A stretch of 33,819 nt of DNA, taken from the NCBI GenBank assembly GCA_021731295.1, contig JAKFXQ010000040.1:1-33819 (forward strand), written 5' to 3'. The translations under genes and the position numbers were made by a program. Under the pieces are notes generated by a model that saw nothing but the letters and a program-made list of their open reading frames with translations, did not search any database and had not been told where the DNA came from. Positions 5,325 through 25,590 of the stretch are shown here, piece after piece. Position 1 is the first letter of the stretch. Each line of letters begins with the position of its first letter. The stretch is from Patescibacteria group bacterium (GTDB taxonomy: Bacteria > Patescibacteriota > Minisyncoccia > Phycocordibacterales > UBA2100).

Positions 5325-6764
5325 TTAGGAGCTTGGACAATCCTTAGTACGATACGTTGTCGGGACACGGCGACAGGCACTATCCGCAAGCTCCGTAGCG
5401 TACGTAATGCGCACCTCCTCTTGGTAGCGCTTGAAGCACATGCGTTTCTCTTCATCCGACAAGAGCGCTGACATGCAGAATTCGAACGCGTGCTGGTATT
5501 CGATGCCTGGTTCGCCAGCGAACATGATGCCGCCAAAGAGACCTGCAATACACTCGGTCTGTAATTCTTGTGGGGCCGCGCGGCAGAAGGCGATGACTTT
5601 CTCGAACGTTTGCTCTTTGACGGCGCGTTTTCCGATGTTAAGTGCGAAAGAATGTGCGGCAATAGGCGCGTAGTAATCGTAATCCTCTGGATTGATGTGT
5701 TTCTTAAAATCGAATACGCTCGCGACTTGCTCGGAATTCGGGATACTCATCAACCGCTTGCCCAGCTCGTGGTAGCAACCTTCTTTGATGTACTCTTTTT
5801 CGCTGATGCGGCACCACGAGAAAAGGTTTTCCGGTTGATAGGTGGGATCATTCGGCTCTGCATGTTCGCCCCAAGTGCGAAAGACGTCGTAGACACCAGA
5901 TGAGCACCGCTTCTGAAAGTCCCGCTCGGTCTGTGTCTGGTCGCACACCTCCATTGCACGCGTGAGCATCTTCGCGATGTCTCGCCGCAAGTACGGTTCG
6001 TCGCGCACAAGATTCTCAAGCGCACCGTGACCGATGCCGTGCACACACTGACCTTCGGCGAGAGGAAATGAGGCGCCAATCTCGCGCCCCACACGGTCGC
6101 AGAAGGCGATGATGTCATCAGGGTCAGGGTGTTCAGCGACAAAACCCTCCATGTACCCATGGAAGAATCCTGCATTGCAGTATCCGGCTTTGGGAGTGAG
6201 TTCAACCTCGGGGCCATAGAGTCCGTATGCTTTGAGGCCGATATCGTGTGCGTAGTCATGACACGTTTTTGCGAAGCGCGGATAGGTAGCATGCAGGGTA
6301 AGTAGTGTGTCGAATGCTGCGTCGAGGCCGTCATCCTGGAGTGAGCGGAAAAGCATGGCGGTCCAGCAGGCCGTGCCCCCATCCTCGTCGCAGAGCGTCT
6401 CGGTGGTGGCCCCGTCTTCATCAACAACGATGACACCGCCCATGTGCGCTTCCAGATGGTCGTGGAAGCCCCATTCTCCGGAACGTGTGAACGTGAACGA
6501 CCATGAGGAGAGGGGGGCGAGGCTGCGTTCCGGGTCGAATTCTTTGTACGCCGTATGTCGCGGATGCATGTCGGAGGCTGGCCACGACAGGCGTGGCGTC
6601 ATGTTGACGAACGTGACTGTTGTTCCGGGAGTAATGGTGAGCGTCGGGGGCTCGAATCCATAGGTCGTACGGGTAATCGTGATACTAGCATCGTTGGTGG
6701 ATGAGGCACCGTGGAGTGCCGCCAAAACAAAGGCGACGAGTATTGTAGATACTGCGATACGCAT
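5325..6764 (-). CDS. P1: cupredoxin domain fused to HxxxH/HGxGH Cys-rich domain (479 aa)
   Basis: A signal peptide (about residues 1-20) is followed by a cupredoxin fold (about 27-115) with HPRH at 67-70 and FHDHLEAHMGG at 100-110. The usual type 1 copper Cys is Asp here (HDH instead of HCH). After a linker comes the Cys/His domain found twelve times in this window: H169xxxH173 (CHDYAH), H202 (FFHG) and H242xxxH246 (CVHGIGH). C-x(10-14)-C pairs follow to the C terminus. The ATG at 6764 has TAGAAT 6 nt upstream. The gene is divergent from the fibre operon at 6821. With P8 it shows that cupredoxin and Cys/His domain work as one polypeptide. Metal binding outside the membrane is inferred; the reaction is unknown. 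Confidence 0.85.
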   Translation of the reverse strand: MRIAVSTILVAFVLAALHGASSTNDASITITRTTYGFEPPTLTITPGTTVTFVNMTPRLSWPASDMHPRHTAYKEFDPERSLAPLSSWSFTFTRSGEWGFHDHLEAHMGGVIVVDEDGATTETLCDEDGGTACWTAMLFRSLQDDGLDAAFDTLLTLHATYPRFAKTCHDYAHDIGLKAYGLYGPEVELTPKAGYCNAGFFHGYMEGFVAEHPDPDDIIAFCDRVGREIGASFPLAEGQCVHGIGHGALENLVRDEPYLRRDIAKMLTRAMEVCDQTQTERDFQKRCSSGVYDVFRTWGEHAEPNDPTYQPENLFSWCRISEKEYIKEGCYHELGKRLMSIPNSEQVASVFDFKKHINPEDYDYYAPIAAHSFALNIGKRAVKEQTFEKVIAFCRAAPQELQTECIAGLFGGIMFAGEPGIEYQHAFEFCMSALLSDEEKRMCFKRYQEEVRITYATELADSACRRVPTTYRTKDCPSS

Positions 6765-6770
6765 GCCGGC

Positions 6771-6776
6771 ATTCTA
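6771..6776 (-). promoter_or_regulatory. -10 box TAGAAT for P1
   Basis: On the minus strand TAGAAT is followed by 6 nt (GCCGGC) and then the ATG at 6764. This fits the leaderless pattern and lies back to back with the promoter of the gene at 6821. Confidence 0.6.
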
Positions 6777-6808
6777 CAGTGCATCATCTCGAGAGTCCTA
6801 GGGCGGTG

Positions 6809-6814
6809 TATGAT
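6809..6814 (+). promoter_or_regulatory. -10 box TATGAT of the fibre operon
   Basis: TATGAT ends 6 nt before the ATG at 6821. There is no Shine-Dalgarno sequence, so a leaderless mRNA is predicted for the three-gene operon 6821-9380. Confidence 0.65.
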
Positions 6815-6820
6815 ACGGAT

Positions 6821-8047
6821 ATGCGAGTAAGCCCTCGTTCTGCATTTGTGGTGGCCGTGGCGCTATCGTGCGCGTTCATCGCACTCAATGAATCACGCGT
6901 TTTCGCCGCTGGTGCGGACAGCAGCACACTCCTGTTGCTTCACGGTGATGGGGTAGACGGAGCCGTTCTCTTTCCTGACGACTCTCGTTTCGGCCGCACT
7001 ATTACGGTGGTCGGGAATACATCAACGCAAAAGGAAGAAAGCAAGTTTGGTTTTTCTGGCATTCTGTTTGATGGCACAAACGATGAACTGGAAATTGCAG
7101 ACGCAACGGAACTCACGTGGGCAGGGAACTTCACCATAGACTTCTGGTTCTGGCGCTCAAGTGGTCAGGATGCGGCACAAGACGCTTTTTTCGGGACATC
7201 GAACACACCGGCGAGCGGCGCAGGATATGACCTCAACATCAACACCTCAAGAAATCCAACGTTTGTGGCGGGCACCGACACCAGCGTTACGTGCTCCAAC
7301 ACGGTCGCCGCGACCACGTGGCAGCATCTAGCGGTCGTGCGCAGTGGCGCGACGACGACGATGTACGTAAACGGCCAAAACTGCGGCTTCGATAGTTCCT
7401 CGACGGTTACCATCAACCCGGTAACGACGGAAATCGGCGCCAACGGAGGTGGCGGGGATGACTTCAACGGGTACATGGACGAAATACGATTTTCGGACGT
7501 GGCGCGATGGACAACGACGTTCACGCCGCCAACTCGTGCCTATGCTGGCGCGATTGAATTCACGGGTCCCGTACTTATCACGGGAAATGCGCATGTAACC
7601 GGCACTATTTCGAAGGGTGCGGGCACGTTTGCGATTGACCATCCGCTCGACCCAAAGGCCATGCTTCTGTATCACTCGTTCGTCGAATCACCGGACGTGA
7701 AGAATGTGTACGACGGCATCGTTACGCTTGATGAACGTGGTGAGGCAGAAATTCCCTTACCCTCGTATTTCATAGCCCTCAATAAGGATTTCCGTTACCT
7801 CGCAACACCATTTGATGGCGCGATGCCGGATTTGCACCTGAAAAATCCCGTCAATCGGTCCTTCTTTGATGGCGACATTAGTTTTGAGATAGCGGGAGGG
7901 ACGCCCGGTGGGCGCGTGTCGTGGCAAGTAACAGGCGTTCGTCATGATGCGTTCATTCGTGAACATCCCGTCGAAATCGAAGTGCCGAAATCATCGGAAA
8001 CGATAGTGCCGCAGGGAGAATGCCTGCACCAAGCTGCCTGTATATGA
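6821..8047 (+). CDS. LamG-domain fibre protein with shared C-terminal module (408 aa)
   Basis: A signal peptide ends near residue 28 (VFAAGA). Residues about 33-240 form a LamG-like jelly roll: LLLLHGDGVDG at the start, FDGTNDELEI, and MDEIRFSDVARW at the end. A short shaft (GPVLITGNAHVTGTISKG) leads into a C-terminal module of roughly 135 residues opening IDHPLDP, then LLYHSFVESPDVKN, and later VSWQVTGVRHDAF. I recall this module as a recurrent, uncharacterised C-terminal domain of bacterial surface proteins; it recurs in the next two genes. The protein ends with a C-x4-C pair (ECLHQAAC). The start at 6821 is preferred over an in-frame ATG at 6779 because the signal peptide begins there and the -10 box lies between. 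Surface attachment is inferred. Confidence 0.85.
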   Translation: MRVSPRSAFVVAVALSCAFIALNESRVFAAGADSSTLLLLHGDGVDGAVLFPDDSRFGRTITVVGNTSTQKEESKFGFSGILFDGTNDELEIADATELTWAGNFTIDFWFWRSSGQDAAQDAFFGTSNTPASGAGYDLNINTSRNPTFVAGTDTSVTCSNTVAATTWQHLAVVRSGATTTMYVNGQNCGFDSSSTVTINPVTTEIGANGGGGDDFNGYMDEIRFSDVARWTTTFTPPTRAYAGAIEFTGPVLITGNAHVTGTISKGAGTFAIDHPLDPKAMLLYHSFVESPDVKNVYDGIVTLDERGEAEIPLPSYFIALNKDFRYLATPFDGAMPDLHLKNPVNRSFFDGDISFEIAGGTPGGRVSWQVTGVRHDAFIREHPVEIEVPKSSETIVPQGECLHQAACI

Positions 8048-8718
8048 TGCGCAAACTCCTCATCTGGATGGTCGTCTGCACTCTCATGCCGGGAGTTGTC
8101 AGCGCCGGCTGCGGGTACGCCCAAGGTGGCTACTATGGCGAAAGCGGATACTACGGAGAAAGTTCGTACTACTCGCAAGGCTCATACTACTCTCAAGGTT
8201 CCTACTATTCGCAGTCGTACTATCAGGGAAGTTATGCGACGACGACGTTGTCAGGAAACGTGCGTTTCGCGCAGGCGCTGTTCATCTACCAGAAACTTTC
8301 GAAAGGTTCCGGAACCTTCGTCATCGACCACCCATTGAATCCGTGGGGGAGCCTCTTGTATCACTCGTTCGTCGAATCGCCCGATGTACTGAATTTATAT
8401 GACGGCGTCATACAGCTGGATGGGAACGGGGAAGCACGCATTGAATTGCCAGCGTACTTCGAAGCGCTGAATACCGATTTCCGCTATCAACTGTTCCCAC
8501 ACTATGCGCCGATGCCAAATTTGCATGTGAAAGCCGAGGTTGTGGGTAACTCGTTCGTTGTTGCCGGCGGACAACCGTACGGTGAGATTACGTGGCAGGT
8601 AACTGCAGTCCGCCACGATCCATACATTCGCGACAACCCCATCATCAACGAAGTGAAAAAGGGGCCAAACGAACTTGTTCCTGCAGGGCAGTGCCTCTAC
8701 GAACCGTTATGTCTATGA
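8044..8718 (+). CDS. Exported Tyr-rich protein with shared C-terminal module (224 aa)
   Basis: The start overlaps the previous stop as ATGA, so translation is probably coupled. A signal peptide ends VVSA-GCGYA near residue 22. Residues about 25-60 are a low-complexity tract of GYYGES/SYYSQG units, made almost only of Tyr, Ser, Gly, Gln and Glu. After a short strand-rich shaft comes the module shared with both neighbours (IDHPLNP, LLYHSFVESPDVLN, ITWQVTAVRHDPY), about residues 93-224. There is no LamG head, so the Tyr-rich tract takes its place. It probably self-assembles or sticks to surfaces; this is inference from composition. Cysteines at 24 and near the C terminus may cross-link. Confidence 0.82.
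   Translation: MMRKLLIWMVVCTLMPGVVSAGCGYAQGGYYGESGYYGESSYYSQGSYYSQGSYYSQSYYQGSYATTTLSGNVRFAQALFIYQKLSKGSGTFVIDHPLNPWGSLLYHSFVESPDVLNLYDGVIQLDGNGEARIELPAYFEALNTDFRYQLFPHYAPMPNLHVKAEVVGNSFVVAGGQPYGEITWQVTAVRHDPYIRDNPIINEVKKGPNELVPAGQCLYEPLCL
8127..8235 (+). repeat. Tyr-rich short-unit repeat (GYYGES/SYYSQG)
   Basis: About six imperfect hexapeptide units encode paired tyrosines every six residues. Codons vary between units, so the repeat is kept at protein level and is not a fresh DNA slippage product. Confidence 0.7.
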
Positions 8719-9380
8719 GAAATCGATTACTCCTCGCATGTGTCGCGTTCTCTCTGATGCCGGGCGTTGTCAGCGCGGCCTGTGGCTACGCGGAGAGTGG
8801 GTACTACGGGCAGAGCGGATACTACACTCAAGCGACGTACCAGACGACATTTACTCGCAATACCTATGGCTTCCGCAATGTGTTCGTGAACGGCGCAATT
8901 TCCAAGGGTTCCGGCACATTCGTGATTGACCATCCGCTCGACCCAGCAAATTCGTTGCTGTACCACTCTTTCGTCGAGTCCCCAGATGCGAAGAACTGGT
9001 ACGACGGCACGGCGACACTCGAAGCTTCTGGGAATGCAACTATTGCACTTCCGGATTATTTTCAAGCGCTCAATCACGAATATCGTTACCAGCTGACGCC
9101 AATCGGTGCAGCCATGCCCGGAGTGCATGTTGCACGGGGCGTCGTGGAAAACGAATTTATTGTAGCGGGCGGCGTGCCGAACGGCCGTATTTCTTGGCAG
9201 ATTACCGGCATTCGCAAAGACCCGTACATTCTCGAGAATCCCATCACCGTTGAAGTAGAGAAGGGAATCGATACAGAAGTTGGTCCCGGTGCGTTTATGC
9301 ACGAGGATGTTTCCCACGGCCTGCGTGACTTAGGTATTTGGGTGCGGCACACACTTGAAGCGTGGGGATTCACCCCGTGA
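8715..9380 (+). CDS. Exported protein with shared C-terminal module (221 aa)
   Basis: The ATG at 8715 overlaps the previous stop as ATGA and is chosen over an ATG two codons earlier because all other joints in this operon are ATGA. A signal peptide (LLLACVAFSLMPGVVSA) closely matches that of the upstream gene. A reduced Tyr tract follows (SGYYGQSGYYTQ), then a shaft and the shared module (IDHPLDP, LLYHSFVESPDAKN, ISWQITGIRKDPY). It extends beyond its paralogues with an amphipathic tail (LRDLGIWVRHTLEAWGF). It is a duplicate of the 8044 gene with a shortened repeat. The function is inferred to be surface or fibre related. Confidence 0.82.
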   Translation: MRNRLLLACVAFSLMPGVVSAACGYAESGYYGQSGYYTQATYQTTFTRNTYGFRNVFVNGAISKGSGTFVIDHPLDPANSLLYHSFVESPDAKNWYDGTATLEASGNATIALPDYFQALNHEYRYQLTPIGAAMPGVHVARGVVENEFIVAGGVPNGRISWQITGIRKDPYILENPITVEVEKGIDTEVGPGAFMHEDVSHGLRDLGIWVRHTLEAWGFTP

Positions 9381-9396: not shown

Positions 9397-9837
9397 TTAC
9401 GGCCGCGGAAACGGGTCGCCAATGAGGAGATGGTCTATGCGATAGACGCCGTCTTTATACAGGCGCATAACGCCCGAACCTCTCATGCCTGCTTGGAGAT
9501 CCGACACTGACGCTTCTCGCGCCGGCGTAACCCCGACGATAACGCCATCTTCGATAATGGCATCTTGTCGGGCCACCGTAAGGCCGTTCGCGATGAGTGT
9601 TACCGGCTGATACTCTCTCATAATGCGGGAGTACAGCATGACTTTCAGCTTCAGTGTTTCTGCATCGTAGTCGAGAATGACGAGGTCCTCAAACATCTGC
9701 ACTTGGAATAGGTAGTCCGGTGACCGTATCCACGCGAACGAAAAATCGTTGTCCTTGAGTGCGACGTAGGCACCAGCGGCCGCGGAGACGAGTGAGCCGA
9801 TAAGTATTGAAGCCAACAAGAGTGCAGTGCGGGTCAT
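9397..9837 (-). CDS. Anchored exported protein of unknown function (146 aa)
   Basis: I do not recognise it. Residues 4-26 form a signal anchor (ALLLASILIGSLVSAAAGAYVAL). The rest is a small beta-rich domain with alternating charged and hydrophobic residues (LVILDYDAETLKLKVML), no Cys and no obvious catalytic motif. It is translated from an ATGA overlap with the gene upstream (stop at 9834), and the two proteins share size and layout: anchor plus a beta domain starting with a strand that reports on a residue pair. They may be distant duplicates or partners. The gene converges on the fibre operon. Confidence 0.7.
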   Translation of the reverse strand: MTRTALLLASILIGSLVSAAAGAYVALKDNDFSFAWIRSPDYLFQVQMFEDLVILDYDAETLKLKVMLYSRIMREYQPVTLIANGLTVARQDAIIEDGVIVGVTPAREASVSDLQAGMRGSGVMRLYKDGVYRIDHLLIGDPFPRP

Positions 9838-10262
9838 ATATCAATGCGCCGGAAGAAAATAATTGACTCGGCGACGAAAGCGTTTTCGTACGGATCACGT
9901 ACGACCATGACGAACGTATCCGGCACCAAGGTCGGCATGTGGTCTAGGAATTCGTACTCGAAACGTTCAATTGTGCCGCTTGCGAAAGTGACGGTCCGTA
10001 CCCCCCAGCGTGTATCGTCAGTGTACGCGAAGCGAACGGGCATGGGAGGCAGTACGCTCGGCAGTGTTGATGCCTGCATGACAGTAAGTTCGCGTAGACC
10101 TACATTGTGACGGAGCACAACGCCCGTATATCGTGATGTCTGCGTTGGGTGTGGGGGTAGCTCGGTGAGCGCCTGTACAGAGAAGAACGAAGCCCAGAAC
10201 GCTGCGCCCGCAAGGCACGTCGCGCCTAACACCAGTACGATATTCCACAGCACTGCCCTCAT
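9834..10262 (-). CDS. Anchored exported protein of unknown function (142 aa)
   Basis: No family is recognised. An N-terminal anchor (residues 4-30, LWNIVLVLGATCLAGAAFWA) precedes a beta-rich exported domain with RYTGVVLRHNVGLRELTV and FVMVVRDPYENAFVAESI. The ATG at 10262 was chosen over one ten codons upstream because it directly precedes the anchor and has a TACAAT box 7 nt upstream. The stop overlaps the start of the next minus-strand gene as ATGA, so the pair forms a two-gene operon divergent from P2. Confidence 0.7.
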   Translation of the reverse strand: MRAVLWNIVLVLGATCLAGAAFWASFFSVQALTELPPHPTQTSRYTGVVLRHNVGLRELTVMQASTLPSVLPPMPVRFAYTDDTRWGVRTVTFASGTIERFEYEFLDHMPTLVPDTFVMVVRDPYENAFVAESIIFFRRIDI

Positions 10263-10269
10263 GGACGAT

Positions 10270-10275
10270 ATTGTA
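10270..10275 (-). promoter_or_regulatory. -10 box TACAAT
   Basis: On the minus strand TACAAT lies 7 nt before the ATG at 10262. It is back to back with the P2 promoter in a 55-bp divergent gap. Confidence 0.5.
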
Positions 10276-10305
10276 CCGTGTGATGCGGACATAATCGACG
10301 TGCGG

Positions 10306-11286: not shown

Positions 11287-12266
11287 CACTCTGTGCGTAG
11301 TGCTTCAGGGGCCGCATCACAAATACGATCGGTTTCTGGCAGCCGTGCATTAATTGCACGGCGCGCCATGTACGACAGGCAGTGCGTCAGGTCATCGTCC
11401 GTGTAGCTGGAATCTCTGCATACCTCAACTCCGTCATGAATAGTCGGCACGCGCCGTCCAATTGAGTTGCCGAGTCCCGCGAAGCAGGCCTGTCGGTCAT
11501 CGCCGCGCATCTCCGCTTCGACGCAGCGCGACGCAATTTCGCGCGTTGTCTCTGACATCGGCATGTCCTGCATCAGTAGTCGCCACCACGCCTGGGTTCT
11601 CCAGAAAGAGCAGGACGAATTGTATTCGGTCGGAACATCACCACAGAGCGCGAAGATGTCATCGGTCTTAACGGGCTCGCTTTGCGCCGCGAGCGTTTGC
11701 AAAAAATACTCCATCATGACGCCGCCGGGACAACTGCGATGTGATGGCAACTCCTCACAGCGACTTAGGGCCCAGCGCACGCCATCTGCATCACGTTCTG
11801 CGGCATACGCGAAAGCATGGCCGATTGAATGTTCACACAAAAGCGATCCGGTGCCGCCCTCATGGCATTCTTCGATAATCTGCGCAATCAGTGCCGTATC
11901 CTTTAGTTCCGATACGTGGAGCCCGAGCACTTCATGATGGCAGGCTGCGCCATTTCGCTCTTTACTCATCATGCAATACTGTAGCGCCCCATACCCTTCA
12001 TGAAGAAAAAGTGCACGCGCAAAGCGGTGTTCAAGATCATGGCGACGAGCGAACGACAAATCCGCGATAGATGATTCAAATAATCCGTATGCCGTGTTCG
12101 GGCTCACGATAAACAGAAGGCCATGCCACGTCGACGTGTATGCTCGCTTACCGATGACCTCATCGTGCTGTGAAAGCGCGCTGGCGAGCATGGTCCCCGA
12201 AGCCACCAAGAGCAGTGTGCTGACGATACAAACGCCCAGGACCGTAGCGCGCACACGTTGAAACAT
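11223..12266 (-). CDS. P3: HxxxH/HGxGH Cys-rich exported protein (347 aa)
   Basis: The anchor spans residues 7-30 (ATVLGVCIVSTLLLVASG). Signature residues are H76xxxH80 (RHDLEH), ACHHE with H111, H146xxxH150 (CEHSIGHA) and CPGGVMMEYF with Glu186. At the position where relatives have CFYNISTLW it reads CSFWRTQAWW. Further Cys pairs follow (CFAGLGNSIGRR, CDAAPEALRTEC). The ATG at 12266 fits a TACCAT box 6 nt upstream; an in-frame codon at 12428 would run through P4 and is rejected. It is the only plain member on the minus strand. It is divergent from P4 with 20 bp between starts and convergent with P2. Confidence 0.83.
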   Translation of the reverse strand: MFQRVRATVLGVCIVSTLLLVASGTMLASALSQHDEVIGKRAYTSTWHGLLFIVSPNTAYGLFESSIADLSFARRHDLEHRFARALFLHEGYGALQYCMMSKERNGAACHHEVLGLHVSELKDTALIAQIIEECHEGGTGSLLCEHSIGHAFAYAAERDADGVRWALSRCEELPSHRSCPGGVMMEYFLQTLAAQSEPVKTDDIFALCGDVPTEYNSSCSFWRTQAWWRLLMQDMPMSETTREIASRCVEAEMRGDDRQACFAGLGNSIGRRVPTIHDGVEVCRDSSYTDDDLTHCLSYMARRAINARLPETDRICDAAPEALRTECQRVATGGNSPAESPPFIDEL

Positions 12267-12272
12267 TGCCCC

Positions 12273-12278
12273 ATGGTA
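12273..12278 (-). promoter_or_regulatory. -10 box TACCAT for P3
   Basis: On the minus strand TACCAT ends 6 nt before the ATG at 12266. It shares two bases with the plus-strand P4 box, so both promoters cannot be occupied at once. Confidence 0.55.
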
Positions 12279-12282
12279 CCCT
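12277..12282 (+). promoter_or_regulatory. -10 box TACCCT for P4
   Basis: TACCCT lies 4 nt before the ATG at 12287 and 10 nt before a second ATG at 12293. The spacing departs from the usual 6-7 nt, so the assignment is weaker than the others. Confidence 0.4.
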
Positions 12283-12286
12283 AACG

Positions 12287-13207
12287 ATGCGTATGCCCAA
12301 GTACCTGCTCCTCGTTGTAGTAGTGACTCTTGTATCGGCTGGAGTCTACATTGGGCACAGGTATGTTGATGCCTCCGGAAAGACATATGACCATGAGGCA
12401 CTCTTTGATTCGCTGACATGGAGCGCACTTATCGAACGCGATGGTGCGGAAAAAGCACGAGAAGAATATCTGCGCGTAACGAAAACAGTGACGCCTGTCT
12501 CTCAGCACAGTGCAGCGCACGCATTCGGGCGCGCATTGTACGAGCAATTTGGCGTCGAGGGATTGCGCTACTGTGACGTCGAATACCGAGGTGGCTGCAT
12601 TCATGAAATGATCGCCCGCGACTTCCTCGATGAGGAGGATCCGCTTTCGAGCGCGTCGCAATGTGTAGAATACGAGATTTCTGTCGCGTGCGAGCATGCG
12701 CTCGGGCACGGATTCGCCGCATTCTTTGGGTATGACGAAGAGGGATTGCGGAAAGGATTGGCACGGTGCACGGAAATCGGCGCTGCCGAAATGATTCACG
12801 GCTGCGCGTTCGGAGTCTTTATGGAGTATTACTTCAAGGATTTGCAGGGCCCGTCCGTACAAGACCCGGATTCCACGAATGCATATGAGCTCTGTGGTTC
12901 GTTTGAAGGTATTTCGCGAAGCGCATGTTTCTATAACATTTCGACCTTGTGGTTTTTGTCGAAAGAAGGGAGCGCGGATGGCGAAGCCTGGCCCTTTGAA
13001 ATTGCACAACGGTGTCGTGACCTACCCGATATGGGGACGGACCGCGTCGATTGTGCCGCTGGTGTCGGACGTTCCATCGCATCTTTGGGGACGATTGAAA
13101 ACGCGAAACGCATCGCACTGTGCCCCGAAGTATTCCGCGGCGAACCAGAGCATATTCGTGCATGCGTGGACTTCTTGTCGTTGTTTCGTTCACTTTGGGA
13201 AAATTAA
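12287..13207 (+). CDS. P4: HxxxH/HGxGH Cys-rich exported protein (306 aa)
   Basis: The anchor spans residues 5-24 (YLLLVVVVTLVSAGVYIG). Signature residues are H74xxxH78 (QHSAAHAF), GGCIHE with H106, H137xxxH141 (CEHALGHG; the first Gly is Ala) and GCAFGVFMEYYF with Glu180. CFYNISTLWF and DCAAGVGRSI follow. It is the closest relative of P5: residues 58-126 match P5 56-124 at 57 of 69 positions, and both proteins have exactly 306 residues, so they are a fairly recent tandem duplication. The start could also be the Met two codons later. The function is unknown; exported metal or redox protein inferred. Confidence 0.85.
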   Translation: MRMPKYLLLVVVVTLVSAGVYIGHRYVDASGKTYDHEALFDSLTWSALIERDGAEKAREEYLRVTKTVTPVSQHSAAHAFGRALYEQFGVEGLRYCDVEYRGGCIHEMIARDFLDEEDPLSSASQCVEYEISVACEHALGHGFAAFFGYDEEGLRKGLARCTEIGAAEMIHGCAFGVFMEYYFKDLQGPSVQDPDSTNAYELCGSFEGISRSACFYNISTLWFLSKEGSADGEAWPFEIAQRCRDLPDMGTDRVDCAAGVGRSIASLGTIENAKRIALCPEVFRGEPEHIRACVDFLSLFRSLWEN

Positions 13208-13236
13208 AGGCAACGTGTCTCGCTAAGTGCCTATGG

Positions 13237-13242
13237 TATTGT
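13237..13242 (+). promoter_or_regulatory. -10 box TATTGT for P5
   Basis: TATTGT, preceded by TGG, ends 7 nt before the ATG at 13250. It supports this start over the GTG at 13241 that lies inside the box. Confidence 0.55.
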
Positions 13243-13249
13243 GACCTTT

Positions 13250-14170
13250 ATGAGCAAGCGCACAGTTGTAATGGTGCTTATCCTCATCGCAGGCGCCATC
13301 TTTGCCGTGCAACAGAATTTCTTTGCACCGACGGAGCGTGTCTACGGGCAAGAAGAACTCTTTGACGTCCTTACCTGGCAGGACCTTATCGATGGGGACG
13401 GTGCTGACGCGGCGCGTGAAGAATATTTACGTGCAACGAAACCAGTAACGCCTGCCGAACAACACATCACCGCGCACGCATTCGGGCGTGCGCTGTATGA
13501 GAGATTCGGCGCGGAAGGGTTGCGATATTGCGGGCTCGAGTACACAGGGGGCTGCATTCACGAGATGATTGCCCGTGACTTTCTGGATAAAGAAGACCCG
13601 CTTTCGAGTGCTTCGCAGTGCGCCGACTTTGCGACGCCTATTGCGTGCGAGCATTCGCTGGGCCACGGATTCATTGCGTTCTATGGTTATGAAGAAGAGG
13701 GTCTGCGGCAGGCATTGGCCATGTGCGCAGACATTGGTGCGGAAGAGTTGATTCACGGTTGTACGTATGGCGTCATTATGGAGTATTATTTCCGGAACTT
13801 GCAGGGCCCACTGGTTAGTGAGCCGGATGATTCGAACGCGTACGAATTGTGTGATTCGTTCGAAGGGGTCGCTCGTCGCTCTTGCTTTTACAACATCTCG
13901 ACCTTGTGGTTCCTGCGGATTGAAGATGATGCGGACATTGAACGGCCGTTCTTTAGGATTGCTGAGAAGTGCTGGGCGCTGCCCGACAAAGAAAGTGATC
14001 GCGAGGACTGCGCGCGGGGGGTGGGGCGCTCCATCGGCTCGTTAGGTACTATTGCGCGTGAGCGACGTATTCAGATGTGCAACGATGTCTACGCGGTAGA
14101 GCCTATATACCTGCAGGCATGCACCGAAACGATCAAACAATTTCGCTCGCTCTGGGGGGAGTTGCGATGA
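13250..14170 (+). CDS. P5: HxxxH/HGxGH Cys-rich exported protein (306 aa)
   Basis: The anchor spans residues 5-22 (TVVMVLILIAGAIFAV). Signature residues are H72xxxH76 (QHITAHAF), GGCIHE with H104, H135xxxH139 (CEHSLGHG; the first Gly is Ser) and GCTYGVIMEYYF with Glu178. SCFYNISTLWF and DCARGVGRSIG follow, and the protein ends FRSLWGELR. It is a tandem copy of P4 but has its own promoter, so the two may be expressed separately. Differences from P4 cluster in the anchor and the C-terminal third. The core around the histidines is nearly unchanged, which argues for constraint on that site. Confidence 0.85.
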   Translation: MSKRTVVMVLILIAGAIFAVQQNFFAPTERVYGQEELFDVLTWQDLIDGDGADAAREEYLRATKPVTPAEQHITAHAFGRALYERFGAEGLRYCGLEYTGGCIHEMIARDFLDKEDPLSSASQCADFATPIACEHSLGHGFIAFYGYEEEGLRQALAMCADIGAEELIHGCTYGVIMEYYFRNLQGPLVSEPDDSNAYELCDSFEGVARRSCFYNISTLWFLRIEDDADIERPFFRIAEKCWALPDKESDREDCARGVGRSIGSLGTIARERRIQMCNDVYAVEPIYLQACTETIKQFRSLWGELR

Positions 14171-14186
14171 GGCAGGGGAGAATTGC

Positions 14187-14192
14187 TAGAAT
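14187..14192 (+). promoter_or_regulatory. -10 box TAGAAT for P6
   Basis: TAGAAT, preceded by TGC (extended form), ends 6 nt before the ATG at 14199. No Shine-Dalgarno sequence is present. Confidence 0.65.
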
Positions 14193-14198
14193 ACAGAT

Positions 14199-15134: not shown

Positions 15135-15243
15135 CGAGGCAACAGACGTACGGCGTAACGATGACCATGCAGTAAGAAATAGGGTCGATAATCTCTGCGG
15201 GAGCAGAATCCGTGGCGACAACGAAATAGCGGTCGGTTTCGGC
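15130..15243 (-). pseudogene. Remnant of a second Lnt-like (CN-hydrolase) gene
   Basis: On the minus strand the translation reads AETDRYFVVATDSAPAEII, then about ten unrelated residues, then TPYV. The intact Lnt-like protein downstream has VETDRYFLVATDSAPAEII, 28 residues, then TPYV. So 17 of 18 residues match, followed by a shorter linker, consistent with a deletion of about 18 codons. No further homology is visible on either side and there is no start, so this is a decayed fragment. Nucleotide differences in the matched stretch (about 12 in 44) are nearly all at synonymous third positions, so the copy diverged under selection before it decayed. Confidence 0.75.
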
Positions 15244-15294
15244 TATGTGTTCAGACGAGTGTCGTCGCGGATTGTGCATATAGAGCGCCGAGTA

Positions 15295-16452: not shown

Positions 16453-17981
16453 CGCGCGCTTCGCACGTACATCCACGACACGAACATGAGGAGTGCTGGT
16501 ACGAAGAGTACTCGTTCGCCAAGCAGTACGTACGGCGTTAACGTGTCTCGTAATCCGACTGTCGCAACCGCGGTGCCGGTAACGCCAAAATCGGTGCGCG
16601 CGATAATGCGGCCGCTTGGGGCAATAATTTCGGCGGGCGCTGAGTCAGTGGCGACGAGGAAGTACCTATCAGTTTCAACAGCTCGTACACGGTTCATTGT
16701 AGAAACTTTGCGTTGCACCCATCGCGATTCATTAAACCAGCCGAGTGCCGAACCATTAGTCAGAATGTCCGCACCCTTGAGCGCGAGTTTTCGGCTGTGC
16801 CGAGGCGACATGCTCTCAAGGCAGATAGAGCCGCCAATGGTCATGCCGCGCATCACGGCAGGTTCAGGATGTTCGACGACCGATAGCCGGCGCGAAATGG
16901 CGTTCACCGTCGCAGAACGAGCCATGATATATGGCGTGTACTCGCGTGGAGGCGCGAGGAACGTTTTGTCCGCGTAACGCCAGAGCGCATCACGTGGCGA
17001 ATAGAACGCGCTCCGTTTAGTGCCAACGTTCGCCCGCCACTCAATGATGGAATCAACGATGGTGAATCTCGAATCGCTCGATTTCCATTCGTAGGTAAGA
17101 CCCGTGGATGTCGCGAGTAGTTCCAAGGATTCTGGAAACACGAGTAAGCCTAAGTCCGGATGGGCATCCTGCAGCGGATTCAAGAGCATCATCACGTCAC
17201 TGATTTTTCGATGCGGGGGGATGGTGTTGCCATGCGAATCGATGGAGACCGATGCCGCGACAAGTTGCGACGCGTCCTGGGCACTGCCAATCAGTGCGGA
17301 AAACATGAAGAGTGTGCCGAGCAGGACTGCCGTTGATGTGAGTATTACCCATTGCGTCTGGCGGCGCAGCATGAACGCAAGTCCAATAGAAAGTGCGTAG
17401 GCTACCCAAGACAACATGAAGATGCCGCCTAATTTCGCGAGTGCGATAAACGGAGAAGCGGCGATGCCGTATCCGGCCATATGTGCAGAGAAATCGGCGC
17501 CCATGAAAATCCCTGGCCCGTGCATGATGACGGCATACAGCCACATCTGTGCGTATTCAGTTAGTACGAACAACGATGCGCCGAAGATTACGCTGGTGAT
17601 GGGGTGTGTATATGAGGCGACACGCGCGAAGAGCAGCAGATTGGCCGTCATGAGTGCGGCGAAGGGAAGAACAATAAGAGACCACTGTAAGAAGACCACG
17701 AACGCGCTCGCGACCCACGAGTCAATGCCCAGCCACAGGAGGGGGATGGTTCCCCAAAATGCACCGAGCGACGTGCCGATGAACACGAAGGAAAATAGGG
17801 CAGCTCGGATACGAGTGAGTGTGGAGCGTATCGCTGCGTGCATGATGGGCACAAGCCCGAGAATCGCGAGCGGCCACGCGTGTGGAATGTATGCGGCACT
17901 TCCGGCAAGGAACGCGCCAAGCGCAATCAGGGCCCCATCTCGCGAAGCGAGTGCATGCACACCGCTATACAAACGACGCAT
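16407..17981 (-). CDS. lnt: Apolipoprotein N-acyltransferase-like CN hydrolase (524 aa)
   Basis: The N-terminal half (about residues 15-235) has six to eight membrane segments. The C-terminal half is a nitrilase-fold domain outside the membrane. The catalytic triad is visible: Glu284 in VFPES, Lys339 in ADKTFLAPPREY and Cys387 in GSICLES. The order and context match Lnt, which transfers an acyl chain to the N-terminal Cys of lipoproteins. A last membrane helix (about 498-512) follows. The length is usual for Lnt. Some motifs are loose (PPREYTPY rather than PFGEYIP), so another acyl acceptor is possible. None of the P proteins shows a clear lipobox. The gene lies inside the array, overlaps P7 by 46 nt and is divergent from P8 with 15 bp between starts. 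Confidence 0.82.
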   Translation of the reverse strand: MRRLYSGVHALASRDGALIALGAFLAGSAAYIPHAWPLAILGLVPIMHAAIRSTLTRIRAALFSFVFIGTSLGAFWGTIPLLWLGIDSWVASAFVVFLQWSLIVLPFAALMTANLLLFARVASYTHPITSVIFGASLFVLTEYAQMWLYAVIMHGPGIFMGADFSAHMAGYGIAASPFIALAKLGGIFMLSWVAYALSIGLAFMLRRQTQWVILTSTAVLLGTLFMFSALIGSAQDASQLVAASVSIDSHGNTIPPHRKISDVMMLLNPLQDAHPDLGLLVFPESLELLATSTGLTYEWKSSDSRFTIVDSIIEWRANVGTKRSAFYSPRDALWRYADKTFLAPPREYTPYIMARSATVNAISRRLSVVEHPEPAVMRGMTIGGSICLESMSPRHSRKLALKGADILTNGSALGWFNESRWVQRKVSTMNRVRAVETDRYFLVATDSAPAEIIAPSGRIIARTDFGVTGTAVATVGLRDTLTPYVLLGERVLFVPALLMFVSWMYVRSARHVPTQSANRSGTSA

Positions 17982-17996: not shown

Positions 17997-19430
17997 ATGA
18001 ATGTGCGATTGCAGAATTTTTTTATACCCGCCGTTTTCTTGGCATTGTTGCTACCGACTACGTCAGGGGCGCAAGAGCGCATAGTCATCCGGCAGACGGA
18101 ACAGGGCTTTGATGCGCCAACGGTAATTATCGAGGCCGGGGACACCGTCGAATTCATCAACGACCGACAGGACCCGGTATGGATTGCCTCCGATTTACAT
18201 CCGTCTCACACGGCGTATCCAGGCTCCGACGTGAGTGCCTGTGGAGGAGACGTGCTCATGTTTGATGCGTGTGGCGCAACGGCACCTGGGGAGTCGTTTA
18301 CATTTACCTTCACTGAAGGCGGAGCGTGGGGATACCACGACCATCTACACCCAACGTTTGGTGGGCAGATCATTGTGCGCGGCGGTGAAGAGAGAGTATG
18401 GCGATCATCCCTTTCTGGATGGCAACGTTTCAAGGCGGTCTTCTTTCGGCAGTGGTTCGAGTTTGCTCCGGCATTCGCAGATAGTTCAGTTCGCGGTTAC
18501 CCTGTGCGCGATGCGATGAAAGACCCAATCATGCGTGAATATCTGATACGGATGTATGGACACAATCGCGTCCTCGCGGCACTTGAGCGCCCGCGCGGGG
18601 ACGAGCGCACACCGGTCATCTGTCATCTCGAGGGGCATTACGTCGGGCGAATGGCGTACGAACTTGGATATGTGGCGCTCGGTGACGTGGCGCTCGATAC
18701 GCGATGCCAGCTTGGGTTCTACCATGGGCTTCTTGAGACGGGCATCGGGTCCGTCGGTACTGACGAAACGATTGCGAAACTCGCTGCGGATTGTGAGACG
18801 CGCAAAGGAGAACCCATTTTCGTAGTGAGCTGCTATCACGGTCTCGGGCACGGGCTGATTGTGTACCATCGATATGACTTACCGACAGCGCTAGAGAAGT
18901 GCAGAATAATCCAAAATGAAAAAGCGTGGGACCTGTGCTATCACGGTGCGTTCATGGAGAATGCCTTCGTTGCGCGCGGGTTTGGTGTCGAACATGAGAC
19001 GGAGTGGCTAAAGGAGGACGATCCGTGGTTCCCGTGCAATGACGAACATGTTGCGACACGAGATGGAGCGATTGTCTGCGCATTCTCACTTCCGGCGATT
19101 TGGAGCGCTCCCATGTTCAATCCGGACGAGCAGATTGCGCGATGTGCAGAGTTCGACGACGCGCGCCGCTCCTTCTGTTTCCAAGGATTCGGTTTCAACA
19201 CCACCGCATGGTACATATTCGATGAGCGCACGATGATGCAAACGTGTGAACGTGCGGAGCGTCCAGATGATGTTATAGACTGCGTGTCAGGGGCCGTCGT
19301 CATGGCGAGTCTCATACGGACTCAATCGACAGACTTCGTCAATGCACGGCTGTGCCAAGTGCATCCTGACGGGCCTGAAGCATGTGGCAAGGCAGTCGCA
19401 GAAAGACTTTCGTGGGTATTCAATCTCTGA
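17997..19430 (+). CDS. P8: cupredoxin domain fused to HxxxH/HGxGH Cys-rich domain (477 aa)
   Basis: A signal peptide (residues 7-25, ending TTSGA) precedes a cupredoxin fold at about 28-128. It shows DLHPSHTAYPG (H68, H71) and WGYHDHLHPTFGG (H114, H116), with Asp where type 1 copper proteins have Cys. An inserted loop (about 79-97) has two Cys not found in the other cupredoxins here. The Cys/His domain follows: H210xxxH214 (CHLEGHYVG), GFYHG with H243, H281xxxH285 (CYHGLGHG) and CYHGAFMENAF with Glu321. Cys pairs run to residue 470. The start at 17997 is set by the signal peptide and the -10 box; longer forms would read through the lnt start region. It has the same architecture as P1, 11 kb away on the other strand. 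The function is inferred as a metal-binding exported protein. Confidence 0.86.
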   Translation: MNVRLQNFFIPAVFLALLLPTTSGAQERIVIRQTEQGFDAPTVIIEAGDTVEFINDRQDPVWIASDLHPSHTAYPGSDVSACGGDVLMFDACGATAPGESFTFTFTEGGAWGYHDHLHPTFGGQIIVRGGEERVWRSSLSGWQRFKAVFFRQWFEFAPAFADSSVRGYPVRDAMKDPIMREYLIRMYGHNRVLAALERPRGDERTPVICHLEGHYVGRMAYELGYVALGDVALDTRCQLGFYHGLLETGIGSVGTDETIAKLAADCETRKGEPIFVVSCYHGLGHGLIVYHRYDLPTALEKCRIIQNEKAWDLCYHGAFMENAFVARGFGVEHETEWLKEDDPWFPCNDEHVATRDGAIVCAFSLPAIWSAPMFNPDEQIARCAEFDDARRSFCFQGFGFNTTAWYIFDERTMMQTCERAERPDDVIDCVSGAVVMASLIRTQSTDFVNARLCQVHPDGPEACGKAVAERLSWVFNL

Positions 19431-19482: not shown

Positions 19483-19488
19483 GTGCGC

Positions 19489-19848
19489 GTGAACCGGTAC
19501 AGCAGTATCGCCATAGCACTGTGTATTGTTGTGGGGATAGCAGGCTATCTGTATCTATCTCCGCAGACGCCAGAGGCGCGCACCATCGTCCTCACGGAGG
19601 ATGGATTTGTACCTAACGAGATTTCTATTCCACGCGGAAGTACGGTGACGTTTACCAATACACTCGAGAAGCAATACTGGCCCGCTTCGAACCTGCACCC
19701 GGACCACTCTATCTATCCTGAATTTGACCCGAAGCGCCCGCTGTCTCCGGAAGAGGAATGGTCGTTTACGTTTGATAAAGAGGGGACGTGGCGTTTCCAC
19801 GACCATCTCCGTTCGTATTACACTGGCGTTATCTATGTCCGCGACTAG
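19489..19848 (+). CDS. Stand-alone anchored cupredoxin with HDH motif (119 aa)
   Basis: A single anchor (residues 6-24, SIAIALCIVVGIAGYLYL) carries one cupredoxin domain. Strands include TIVLTEDGFVPNEISIPRGS and VTFTNT, then WPASNLHPDHSIYPEFDP and WRFHDHLRSYYTG. The HPxH and HDH motifs are those of the cupredoxin parts of P1 and P8, again with Asp instead of the copper-ligating Cys. The GTG start is chosen by spacing to TATGAT. The 3' end overlaps P9 by 14 nt in another frame, so the two-domain protein seen twice elsewhere is encoded here as two coupled genes, each with its own anchor. Confidence 0.82.
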   Translation: MNRYSSIAIALCIVVGIAGYLYLSPQTPEARTIVLTEDGFVPNEISIPRGSTVTFTNTLEKQYWPASNLHPDHSIYPEFDPKRPLSPEEEWSFTFDKEGTWRFHDHLRSYYTGVIYVRD

Positions 19849-21046: not shown

Positions 21047-22144
21047 ATGCAAGCCCTGGTGCGATTCCTCTCGTACAACAACGCGGTCCCTGTCGGGCTG
21101 TCGCTCCTCATGCTTTCCGTGACTGCGGCGTTCGCCTCGAGCGAGGAGATGCGCGAAACGGTGTACGACTCGGAAACGCAGGTAGTCGCCGTCGACAATA
21201 CCTACATTTCCAACATTGACCTTGCGACGTTCCAGCCGCGCGCGGAAATCACGGCGGTAACCGAAGATGAAGAGCAGTTCTACGTCTCATACACACTCAG
21301 TACGATAGATATTGAGGATGGCGTCTGGCAGGATGTGGTGAAAGACCGTTCTATTACCGTTACCAAAGCGTTCCTCGGAGACAGCATTGACCTCGGTCTC
21401 CATATTTCAAAGGAGCTAGCGCAGGTCGTTGCGGCAGAGCACGCCCGTCTGAGCGAAACGCAACAGATAGAGCAGAGAAATGTCACACCACGCATTGTTG
21501 CGACTGAGTACTCAGGGCTCATTGGCCGCTTCATGGACCCGACAGTTGAGGAGTTTGAGGGCTATCAGCCTGTAGTAGTCGCGCCAGAACCCGAGCCGAA
21601 TACTCCGCAGGTTGCCGGCGCTGCGGGCTCGACCAATACGTCAGCACCATCCGGTGGCGCGCCGGCAACGCTCTCTATCACACTCCTCGGTGATTCTCCG
21701 GCGCGCGTCGCGCGGGGCGGCGACTATCGCGAACTGGGCGTCGCAGTAACGGGCGGTTCTGGCGCACCAACAGTATTGGCGTCAGTTGATGGCGGAGCGC
21801 AAAAGCCGAGCAATCAGATTGTCCTCGATACGACCTACGATCGAGCGTGGCATATACAGTATGAGGTGCGCGACGGAGGCGCGGTTGCCTACGCGGAGCG
21901 ATACGTGCTCGTCGGGAACGCGCAGATACCTGGAAGCCAGCCTTCGCCGGAGCCGCCTGCGCCGGAACCTGTACAGGAACCCGTACCAGAACCGGAGCCA
22001 GCGGCGCTTCCCGAAGAATCTGCCTCGAGTACCGAAACAGTCAACGAACCTGAGCCTGTACCTGATGTGGTGCTCGGACCGGAGGCACCAATCGACGACA
22101 CTGTTTCAACGAGCACTGAAGCCACCGAAGTCGTATCAGAGTGA
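21047..22144 (+). CDS. Exported protein with Ig-like domain and Pro/Glu-rich tail (365 aa)
   Basis: A signal peptide ends near residue 30 (LMLSVTAAFA-SS). Residues about 30-180 form an alpha/beta region without a known name (ISNIDLATFQPRAEIT, TEYSGLIGRFMDP); I have the impression that this domain recurs in parcubacterial proteins. Residues about 205-288 look like a bacterial Ig-like (DUF5011-type) domain: SITLLGDSPARVARGGDYRE and IQYEVRDGGAVAYAERYVLV. The last 75 residues are a disordered Pro/Glu/Ser tail with PEP, PVPEPEP and APEP repeats, suited to crossing the cell wall. It has no cysteines, so it is not part of the P family, though it lies within the array. The role is probably structural or surface related. 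Confidence 0.78.
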   Translation: MQALVRFLSYNNAVPVGLSLLMLSVTAAFASSEEMRETVYDSETQVVAVDNTYISNIDLATFQPRAEITAVTEDEEQFYVSYTLSTIDIEDGVWQDVVKDRSITVTKAFLGDSIDLGLHISKELAQVVAAEHARLSETQQIEQRNVTPRIVATEYSGLIGRFMDPTVEEFEGYQPVVVAPEPEPNTPQVAGAAGSTNTSAPSGGAPATLSITLLGDSPARVARGGDYRELGVAVTGGSGAPTVLASVDGGAQKPSNQIVLDTTYDRAWHIQYEVRDGGAVAYAERYVLVGNAQIPGSQPSPEPPAPEPVQEPVPEPEPAALPEESASSTETVNEPEPVPDVVLGPEAPIDDTVSTSTEATEVVSE

Positions 22145-23360: not shown

Positions 23361-24400
23361 ATCGGGCGCATTGGGGGCTGGTTGTTGTCGCACTGCTCGT
23401 AGTCGGGCTTATCTTCATGGGTGCGAATCGTCGCGACATGGCGACGCCCCCGCTCGGAGTCGAGTACGAAGAGGAATGGAAAGAGTTCATCAGCACTGTC
23501 GGCCCGCAAGAAGCGTATCGTGCATTTGCGGAATCCGTGCGCGATTTGCAACCGGGCCCACAACACACCAACGCACATTTCTTTGGCGCTGCGCTTTTCG
23601 GTGCCGTAGGGACGGACGGACTTCCGGCATGCGATGACCGTTTCTCGTTCGGCTGCTACCACGAGTTTCTTGGCCACGCGATACGTGATTTGGGGCTCGA
23701 CGTTGTCTTCGAACTCAACGCACGGTGCCGCGAAGTAATTCCGCATAATCCACTTTCGTGCCAGCACGGCATCGGGCACGGCGTGCAAGCGCATTTCGGG
23801 TACGAAGACGCAGCGCTCTTCTCCTCACTTGATGTGTGCAAATCGTTGCCAGACGCTGACATCATTGGTGGATGCTACGGCGGAGCGTTCATGGAGTACA
23901 ATTTACGCACCATGGTCGGGGAATCGGCGCCTCTGCGCGAAGGATTTGAAGATCCGCACTATCCGTGCTCCGTCGTTGAGGACGATTACGTAACGGCATG
24001 CGTATTTTGGCAGCCGCAGTGGTGGTTGGCCCAAATGCGCACGACGATGCTCGGTTCGACCGTGCGTGAGCGCGTCGGTGAGGCAGGACGACTGTGCACC
24101 AGCTCGCGTGACCGTGAGCATTGTTTCGAAGGCGTGGGGAATATCATGCTGTCGGAAGCGCGTGATGAACGAGGTGTCCCGCAAATCGCGGTCGCTCAGG
24201 ACTTATGTGAAGCAGCAGCGCGCACCGATGCCGACGAGTTGCGCTGTCTCTCCATTGCCGCGAATCACTTTGGTATTGAAGTGTCGCACGAGGCTGGGCG
24301 CGACGTGTGCAGCAAGCTCACTGGGGAAAGTCGTATCTTTTGTGAGAATCATGCGGTCAACATTGCAAACATCGCGAATCGGCCGCCGTTCCCCCTATGA
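23357..24400 (+). CDS. P11: HxxxH/HGxGH Cys-rich exported protein (347 aa)
   Basis: The anchor spans residues 6-22 (WGLVVVALLVVGLIFMG). Signature residues are H70xxxH74 (QHTNAHFFG), GCYHEFLGH with H102, H137xxxH141 (CQHGIGHG) and GCYGGAFMEYNL with Glu180. ACVFWQPQWW replaces the CFYNISTLW of P4-P6. The YHEFLGH stretch is not an HExxH zinc-protease motif (spacing is one residue too long). The start overlaps the P10 stop as ATGA, and its stop overlaps the P12 start likewise, so the three proteins are probably made in fixed proportion and may form one complex. Confidence 0.84.
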   Translation: MNRAHWGLVVVALLVVGLIFMGANRRDMATPPLGVEYEEEWKEFISTVGPQEAYRAFAESVRDLQPGPQHTNAHFFGAALFGAVGTDGLPACDDRFSFGCYHEFLGHAIRDLGLDVVFELNARCREVIPHNPLSCQHGIGHGVQAHFGYEDAALFSSLDVCKSLPDADIIGGCYGGAFMEYNLRTMVGESAPLREGFEDPHYPCSVVEDDYVTACVFWQPQWWLAQMRTTMLGSTVRERVGEAGRLCTSSRDREHCFEGVGNIMLSEARDERGVPQIAVAQDLCEAAARTDADELRCLSIAANHFGIEVSHEAGRDVCSKLTGESRIFCENHAVNIANIANRPPFPL

Positions 24401-25590
24401 AAAAGAAAACGTCCGCAACAATGAGTCGTTTCGCCCTTGCGCTTGGTGGTGTCGGCGGACTGCTCGTCGCACTCTGGGTATTCGCGCCTAGTGGCACGAC
24501 CGTGCATGCGGAAACACAAATCATTCTCGAGACCTGCGCAGCGGAATCCTCTCGAGAGGCCTGTTACGAGCGTGAGGTTCCGGAGCGGTATGGGGACTTT
24601 GATGTCCCCGAGCTCTTTGAGGTCGTGCGCGCCATTTTGCGTGAAGACCGCAACTATCAGTTCTGTCACGTGCTCGCGCACAAAATCGGCGAGCGCGCGG
24701 TCGCCGAAGACAGAGATGCATGGCTTTCTTTGGTCCCGAAGAACCCTGCGGATGGACTGTGCAGCAACGGATACATTCATGGCGTCATTGTCGGCCGATT
24801 CCGAGACGATGCGTTCGATGACGCACTCCTTAAGGCAACGTTGCCCGATTTCGCGCGGGCCTGTGAACCTCAGACGGACTGGAGTCCGTCGCCCCTCGAT
24901 CAAGCCATTTGCTATCACGGCATGGGGCACTTGTTTATGTTTATTACCGATGCCGACTACCGGCGTTCTTTGGATTCGTGCGAAGTTGTCGGAGACAGTG
25001 TATCTGGCGATTTCCGACGTGTGTGCCGCGAAGGTGTCTTTATGCAGACATATCAACCCCTTGAGCCAGACGATTTTCTACTTCTAGAACTCTTGCCTGA
25101 AATCCCTAATGCTGATAACTACCGCCGCATTTGTGCGAAGTTCCCTGATGACGGCGAGGAAGCTGCATGTCTCCGGGAGGCGTGGCCGCTCTTCAGAGAA
25201 GGCATTATTGACGGTACGGGGATTGGCGCGTTTTGTTCGGGACACCCACGTGGGCATGAAGATGCGTGCTATGACACGGTGTTCGCCATCATTGGGCGCA
25301 TGTCGCAGGGCGAGCAGCATCGCGACCGTATAGCGTCGTCCTGCTCTGGCGCGCCCCGCGAATGGCAGGGTTACTGTTTCGGAACAGTGGCGTACGCATT
25401 TATTGAAGAGAATCGCACGGCGGTAGACGAGGCGGTTGGTGTCTGTGCTCGTGCCCCTGACTATGCGCAGGACGGATGCTACGAAGTGCTCGTCACTCGT
25501 CGCAACTTTGCGTTTGGTTCGAATACAGACGGCATCGCGCGACTGTGCGCCGCGCTCCCTTCATCGTGGCGCGCTCAATGTGAGTACTAG
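24397..25590 (+). CDS. P12: HxxxH/HGxGH Cys-rich exported protein, CHxxxH type (397 aa)
   Basis: A positively charged start (MKKK) and anchor (residues 12-31) precede the exported part. Signature residues are H91xxxH95 (CHVLAHKIG), GYIHG with H128 (in SNGYIHG, no Cys next to the His), H174xxxH178 (CYHGMGHL; Leu replaces the usual final small residue) and CREGVFMQTYQ, with Gln217 in place of Glu. C-terminal Cys pairs are regular (FCSGHPRGHEDAC, SCSGAPREWQGYC, VCARAPDYAQDGC, LCAALPSSWRAQC). It is translated from an ATGA overlap with P11 and ends the operon. Its substitutions make it the most divergent of the trio, perhaps with a different ligand set. Confidence 0.84.
   Translation: MKKKTSATMSRFALALGGVGGLLVALWVFAPSGTTVHAETQIILETCAAESSREACYEREVPERYGDFDVPELFEVVRAILREDRNYQFCHVLAHKIGERAVAEDRDAWLSLVPKNPADGLCSNGYIHGVIVGRFRDDAFDDALLKATLPDFARACEPQTDWSPSPLDQAICYHGMGHLFMFITDADYRRSLDSCEVVGDSVSGDFRRVCREGVFMQTYQPLEPDDFLLLELLPEIPNADNYRRICAKFPDDGEEAACLREAWPLFREGIIDGTGIGAFCSGHPRGHEDACYDTVFAIIGRMSQGEQHRDRIASSCSGAPREWQGYCFGTVAYAFIEENRTAVDEAVGVCARAPDYAQDGCYEVLVTRRNFAFGSNTDGIARLCAALPSSWRAQCEY

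Follow-up and report, generated by a model that had tools for sequence, protein, structure and literature searches.

Twelve exported five-histidine proteins with a predicted disulfide-stapled alpha-solenoid in a Patescibacteria genome: a candidate family for extracytoplasmic copper handling

Introduction

Alpha-hairpin repeats tied by disulfides are described from the Sel1-like proteins of oxidising compartments, such as Helicobacter Hcp and human COA7, in which cysteines 8-12 residues apart join helix A to helix B. COA7 is a disulfide-tethered helix-turn-helix protein of five repeats in the mitochondrial intermembrane space (PMC12114033), and a source cited there calls it haem-binding in its title. 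Here we describe twelve paralogous open reading frames (P1-P12) at 5325-25590 of a 33,819-nucleotide stretch of DNA (the window, which is contig C9 of the 998 kb, 95% complete genome of a Patescibacteria group bacterium from groundwater); by alignment and profile they make up one protein family, whose members are predicted to share the hairpin repeats, the cysteine spacing and the oxidising compartment of the Sel1-like proteins. The family differs from these in sequence, as the Sel1 profile (PF08238) matched none of ten window proteins and 12 members of a family alignment at E-values up to 1, and profiles of the family found no chain among the PDB sequences. To our knowledge, an invariant set of five histidines is known from neither Hcp nor COA7.

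The CopC/CopD/YcnI-type copper uptake systems share with the family both gene company (CopC-CopD adjacency and a CopD fusion) and the proposed role of an exported metal-binding protein. However, CopC folds as a beta-sandwich and has its His site at the N-terminus, whereas the family is predicted to be all-alpha with internal His, and CopC and CopD profiles gave no match in the solenoid domain of the proteins scanned. Deoxyhypusine hydroxylase has a metal site between the helices of an alpha-solenoid, as is proposed for the family. That enzyme is cytoplasmic and diiron, with His-Glu motifs and no disulfides; the HEAT-repeat profile matched none of the window proteins and 12 members scanned here. 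Plastocyanin- and amicyanin-type cupredoxins are alike in fold to the fused domain of P1 and P8 only, in which the Cys ligand is not conserved and invariant HPxH and HDH motifs are found instead. The family would work somewhat like COA7 or CopC; by the tests run, it is a member of neither.

Results

The array is confirmed, and none of the libraries that we searched contains the family. Alignment of the twelve proteins yields 16 invariant columns, comprising five His (H75, H79, H107, H138 and H142 in P5 numbering), nine Cys and two Gly, in proteins whose overall His and Cys contents are just 3.1% and 4.0% of residues. A profile built from the twelve recovers each of them at E-values of ~1e-80 to 1e-107, which is circular as the queries built it; P5 alone, as a single-sequence query, finds six other array members at 4e-11 or better. 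An N-terminal hydrophobic segment is present in 12 of 12 (Kyte-Doolittle 17-mer mean 1.8-2.8), with no second segment in any. An earlier interpretation made without database searches (the sequence-only reading) had proposed twelve paralogous exported proteins at this place, and the presence of all the reading frames, their common profile and their hydrophobic N-termini bear it out. Within the motif order that it proposed, the ME of the 'CxxG(V/A)xME' unit is not general: among 203 family members of ~20% identity, the sample used for the conservation counts below, the Met of this GVFME unit is 86% and the Glu 72% conserved, and the ME is absent from P1.

Searches of Pfam, NCBIfam and PHROGs gave no match beyond the cupredoxin part, bar weak single matches below cut-off. 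A possible identity of P10 with CutC was considered, but the match (E 0.0024) lies below the cut-off and concerns a single member, and was taken as chance. No description of the family was found in the literature searched, and the earlier reading, which did not recognise a named family, holds for the libraries searched, as profile searches placed the proteins in no characterised one. The family was found in 20 of 60 near relatives, in 22 of 380 genomes across the phylum and at 223 confirmed places in a species-level genome collection. The best 80 of these 223 fall in many Patescibacteria lineages, Woesearchaeota, Gemmatimonadetes, Rubrobacter and other Actinomycetota, Chloroflexi, Nitrospira and Binatota. 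Kitasatospora purpeofusca and Gemmatirosa kalamazoonensis provide complete and named examples, in each case plasmid-borne. Carriage by Nitrospira, Kitasatospora and Gemmatirosa contradicts the idea that the family is special to a small genome. We also considered and rejected phage or plasmid cargo, with no phage match, 14 pattern matches in IMG/VR of which none was confirmed, and two plasmid records only. The count of twelve copies for the window's own genome proved too low, as three further members lie outside the window: contig C27 carries a conserved single-copy type, C2 a fusion to cupredoxin and C1 a copy that is degenerate.

The 299-residue core of a member from congener G006 (L037) was modelled by AlphaFold2 with a mean pLDDT of 91 and a pTM of 0.87, as sixteen helices arranged as hairpins. 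In the model of P8 (pLDDT 80), a plastocyanin-like sandwich occupies residues 27-127 and the same solenoid comes after it. The His motifs are predicted on helices 29-47, 67-80 and 104-120 of L037 and 205-221, 235-252 and 272-289 of P8, which are successive B helices in both, so that the shared motifs occupy equivalent positions in the two models, as had been expected of them. Foldseek found no significant solved relative of the solenoid domain (best E 0.059; threshold E 0.001), and a fold search against viral structures gave no match. With VIA, the C-terminal half of the solenoid (residues 166-297) aligned to designed helical repeats with a Z of 8.7, which possibly reflects merely a common arrangement. 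The missing fold matches do not prove a new fold.

In the model, most Cys pairs bridge the end of a helix and the beginning of the following one, and they are inherited as units. Both Cys of pairs 1, 2 and 3 are present in 140, 174 and 195 members and both are missing from 62, 25 and 3, respectively, with zero members holding only one or only the other (phi 1.00 for each pair); a replacement pair lies nearby in 59 of the members without pair 1. Given that neither Cys of a pair occurs without the other and that they lie at the ends of helices, the Cys appear to form structural disulfides of an oxidising compartment. The same perfect co-variation and helix-end positions rule out the Cys as metal or redox ligands, and with this the surface redox chemistry once suggested for them was abandoned. 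VKOR, considered as a link to disulfide machinery, is absent from the window's genome and not associated with the family. A DsbA-like gene was seen near one family cluster (L174).

For the five His (HxxxH; H; HGxGH), conservation is at 99%, on a par with the Cys. At these five positions the degenerate C1 copy reads RAERR, and a sister in G010 reads HLQRR. As the two exceptions lost most of the site together, a joint role of the five His is indicated. An arrangement of two (i,i+4) His pairs and a further His on adjacent helices is suggestive of a metal site, either mono- or dinuclear, and the positions of the five in the models indicate that they probably make up a single site for a metal (or haem). 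The site-less sisters retain much of the Cys frame (G000:C1:32123-32689, L023, and L170 9358-10557), which are possibly pseudo-members.

Fusion to a cupredoxin domain, at the N-terminus, at the C-terminus or with doubled solenoids, is seen in 18 of the 203 members, and both P1 and P8 carry the domain N-terminally. The P8 domain resembles plastocyanin 1bxu (Foldseek E 1.2e-4; VIA Z 13.1, root-mean-square deviation 1.3 over 84 residues), and several fusions are matched by Pfam Cupredoxin_1. Alignment of 15 fusions revealed invariant W, AS, HPxH and HDH (H67, H70, H113, D114 and H115) and, in the cupredoxin domain, no invariant Cys that could be a type 1 copper ligand. Type 1 electron-transfer copper is therefore unlikely in the fused cupredoxins, and their conserved residues suggest a copper (or zinc) site made of His alone. 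The family-bearing congeners have 34 cupredoxin genes, of which 20 are no more than 1 kb from a family gene where chance would give 0.9, an enrichment whose naive binomial probability of 3e-23 is not literal since the genomes are related.

Other copper genes keep company with the family as well. A cluster in congener G016 unites two family genes with a cupredoxin gene and a small gene of the type found at 25605-26135 of the window, and a CopC-CopD gene (CopC 65 bits) lies 1.1 kb away. An actinobacterial member (L158) has a CopD-like domain in an extra N-terminal part (NF033808, 60.7 bits, E 1.7e-16, below the equivalog cut-off). The family gene of Kitasatospora purpeofusca adjoins Caa3_CtaG (248.6 bits), and eight genes on lies a protein annotated as CopC, with CopD and a weak YtkA match. 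NirK is present in 9 of 17 congeners with the family and in 1 of 19 without it (Fisher p 0.0023), and in the phylum sample, from which the window's own genome was excluded, the family occurs in 3 of 8 NirK genomes against 0.44 expected (p 0.007), both p values being nominal as congeners are non-independent samples. COX1 has no positive link to the family within the genus. The idea that the family mainly supplies haem-copper oxidase with copper in this genus found no support, as only one of the family-bearing congeners has COX1. In the window's own genome, NirK stands beside a CopC protein on contig C10. The cluster there (G000:C10 ~11800-17000, L190) comprises NirK, an exported protein that starts HETHVYDVGGTHYQF after its signal, and the CopC protein; this HETH-type exported protein also occurs ahead of CopC-CopD in G016.

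Homologues of the small protein encoded at 25605-26135 touch family genes or lie within 300 bases of them in six further genomes. Ala-His stands at the likely signal peptidase cleavage point in 7 of 7 sequences of this type. CopC and other histidine-brace copper proteins chelate the metal through an N-terminal His (PMC10952591, PMC7529816), and cleavage at this point would leave the small protein with a candidate copper ligand of that kind. Profile comparison of this small protein with the five-His family gave no match, as expected.

The sequence-only reading had emphasised many diverged copies side by side. Diverged they are, but a FastTree tree of 201 family members places the closest relatives of P1, P7, P8, P9, P10, P11 and P12 in other genomes, so that most copies represent old subfamilies; only P2, P4, P5 and P6 group within this genome as local duplicates, perhaps with P3, whose placement has weak support. 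Recent tandem amplification is thus ruled out for seven of the twelve. Between P4 and P5, nonsynonymous divergence (dN) is 0.31 and synonymous divergence (dS) is saturated, which indicates that at least these two are under purifying selection. Gene order is partly kept in G007, where a cupredoxin gene precedes the P9 type and Lnt stands beside the P8 type, and gapA-rpiB-rpe flank the array in G007 and G022 as in the window. Several congeners have groups of 8-12 members, other families have smaller groups, and many congeners have none. From the tree, the partly conserved order and the recurring groups, the array reads as an old accessory locus of distinct subfamilies with some local duplication.

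Discussion

We consider it slightly better than an even chance (probability about 0.52) that the five-His solenoid proteins serve extracytoplasmic copper handling, together with the Cys-less cupredoxins and the Ala-His protein, for enzymes such as NirK. The family proteins would be exported or membrane-anchored metalloproteins, each a solenoid of ~8 alpha-hairpins, most of them closed by a disulfide from the end of helix A to the start of helix B. The B helices of hairpins 1-3 would contribute the five His, and frequently hairpin 4 a Met, to a single metal site, and the metal, most likely copper, would be collected, held or handed over outside the cytoplasm. The fused or neighbouring Cys-less cupredoxins and the Ala-His small protein may act as partners, and extracytoplasmic copper enzymes, e.g., nitrite reductase NirK, may be supplied in this way. 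We infer metal binding, the identity of copper and its delivery alike, and treat copper as a supported hypothesis. Among the functions first suggested for the array, metal capture is the best supported, by the five His and the copper gene company; none of the findings points to host contact, at which no test was aimed.

Several observations weigh against copper handling. Twelve different copies exceed the needs of a simple chaperone, the fused cupredoxins lack the type 1 Cys ligand, and the association with NirK is drawn in part from related genomes. Many single-copy homes of the family, in Nitrospira, Gemmatimonadota and Actinomycetes, have no copper or other metal gene nearby. Two genomes (G016 and L100) have a ZIP transporter next to family genes and one (G016) has a Fur-type regulator there, which would fit zinc or iron as well, and a membrane-anchored cytochrome b5-like gene directly follows the single-copy family gene in Rubrobacter and Saccharibacteria (L104, L130, L107, L126 and L133), which would fit haem. 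Other ligands are also kept open by a single reading frame of G037:C1 (L040), in which a DCC1-like thiol oxidoreductase and a MauE-like membrane part are joined to a five-His domain.

Alternatively, the proteins may be enzymes of copper or another metal, with a mono- or dinuclear five-His centre that performs redox chemistry on surface substrates, subfamilies that differ in substrate, and a cupredoxin that loads or feeds the site. We regard this as unlikely, although it fares best among the alternatives. The two (i,i+4) His pairs and the fifth His resemble dinuclear centres, old subfamilies have been retained side by side, and the single-copy subfamily has further invariant polar residues on the next helices (Q190, S192, R226 and D227) in the manner of an active site. 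However, these further polar residues are not kept in the array paralogues, the neighbouring genes imply no substrate or electron partner, and a Cys-less cupredoxin is an unlikely classic electron carrier.

More doubtful is a haem-binding carrier or assembly factor analogous to human COA7. Disulfide-tied hairpins in an oxidising compartment would give it the same build, and the conserved His with a frequent Met, the cytochrome b5-like neighbours, and CtaG and CcsB nearby in Kitasatospora would all suit haem. Against this, two profiles gave no sequence match to COA7 (PDB 7MQZ) or any PDB chain at E-values up to 10, five His exceed what haem needs, the cupredoxin, CopC and CopD company concerns copper, and nearly all array genomes of the genus are without haem-copper oxidase. 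Somewhat less probable again is surface capture of zinc (or iron) that would feed a ZIP transporter under Fur/Zur control; all-His sites suit zinc, and both a transporter and a regulator of the right kinds have been noted above, but ZIP is found at two loci only, compared with repeated links to cupredoxin, CopC and CopD, and zinc would leave the co-occurrence with NirK unexplained. That the His are structural or a non-metal ligand site in diversified surface adhesins is very improbable, since, although LamG and 'FVIDHPLDP' surface proteins accompany the arrays upstream in the genus, an exposed adhesin surface would not keep five His conserved like the disulfide Cys across several phyla and lost as a block.

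A broader form of the copper-handling reading, which we offer only tentatively and would not expect to hold in full, is that of a new extracytoplasmic copper superfamily, a five-His, disulfide-stapled alpha-solenoid of Bacteria and DPANN archaea, of which a dozen co-resident subfamilies in some Patescibacteria would constitute a surface system for copper with a link to nitrite reduction. Kaiserbacteria are reported to have copper nitrite reductase, with the electron route to it unresolved (PMC5581439). The family is a concrete candidate for the supply of copper to the enzyme in such cells. The same single-copy protein in Nitrospira and Gemmatimonadota carries the question to important nitrogen-cycle bacteria. 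The family also explains a block of exported Cys-rich coding in these reduced genomes and would represent a metal-site architecture absent from every profile library searched.

Gene Content of the Window

The genes of the array and those interspersed with it are given in Table 1.

Table 1. Positions and features of the array genes, P1-P12, and of the genes lying among or next to them in the window.
Gene	Position	Strand	Features
P1	5325-6764	-	signal peptide, cupredoxin domain (~6414-6695), predicted five-His solenoid domain
P2	10318-11286	+	predicted five-His solenoid protein, local duplicate group
P3	11223-12266	-	predicted five-His solenoid protein, long branch
P4	12293-13207	+	predicted five-His solenoid protein, 59% identity to P5
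P5	13241-14170	+	predicted five-His solenoid protein; codons of the invariant His begin at 13463, 13475, 13559, 13652, 13664
P6	14199-15134	+	predicted five-His solenoid protein
P7	15310-16452	+	predicted five-His solenoid protein; closest relative in congener G003
Lnt-like apolipoprotein N-acyltransferase	16407-17981	-	within the array; adjoins the P8 orthologue in congener G007 too
P8	17997-19430	+	signal peptide, cupredoxin domain (~18069-18383), predicted five-His solenoid domain; modelled
Stand-alone membrane-anchored cupredoxin	19483-19848	+	HPxH and HDH; G007 orthologue at the same place
P9	19835-21034	+	predicted five-His solenoid protein; orthologue comes after the cupredoxin gene in G007
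Exported protein	21047-22144	+	G007 homologue has a bacterial surface Ig-like domain; adjoins family genes in G007 and G003
P10	22173-23360	+	predicted five-His solenoid protein; orthologues in many congeners
P11	23357-24400	+	predicted five-His solenoid protein
P12	24397-25590	+	predicted five-His solenoid protein; orthologues in G007 and G022
Small exported protein, anchored at the C-terminus	25605-26135	+	homologues near family genes in six other genomes

Upstream of the array, the window encodes a large repeat-rich surface protein (344-2539) and a protein with two Laminin_G_3 domains (3080-5317). Three tandem exported paralogues at 6779-9380 share a common 'KGSGTFVIDHPLDPxxxLLYHSFVESPD' domain; homologues of this 'FVIDHPLDP' type occur upstream of five-His arrays in at least seven congeners, and a Pfam scan of one of the three gave no match. 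An overlapping pair of small exported proteins of unknown family follows on the minus strand (9397-9837 and 9834-10292), and the G007 array has a pair that resembles it in size and arrangement (L162 16465-17516). Beyond the array, a type IV pilin-like protein (GFTLIELLAVISIIG) is encoded at 28564-29130, between the rpe and transketolase genes.

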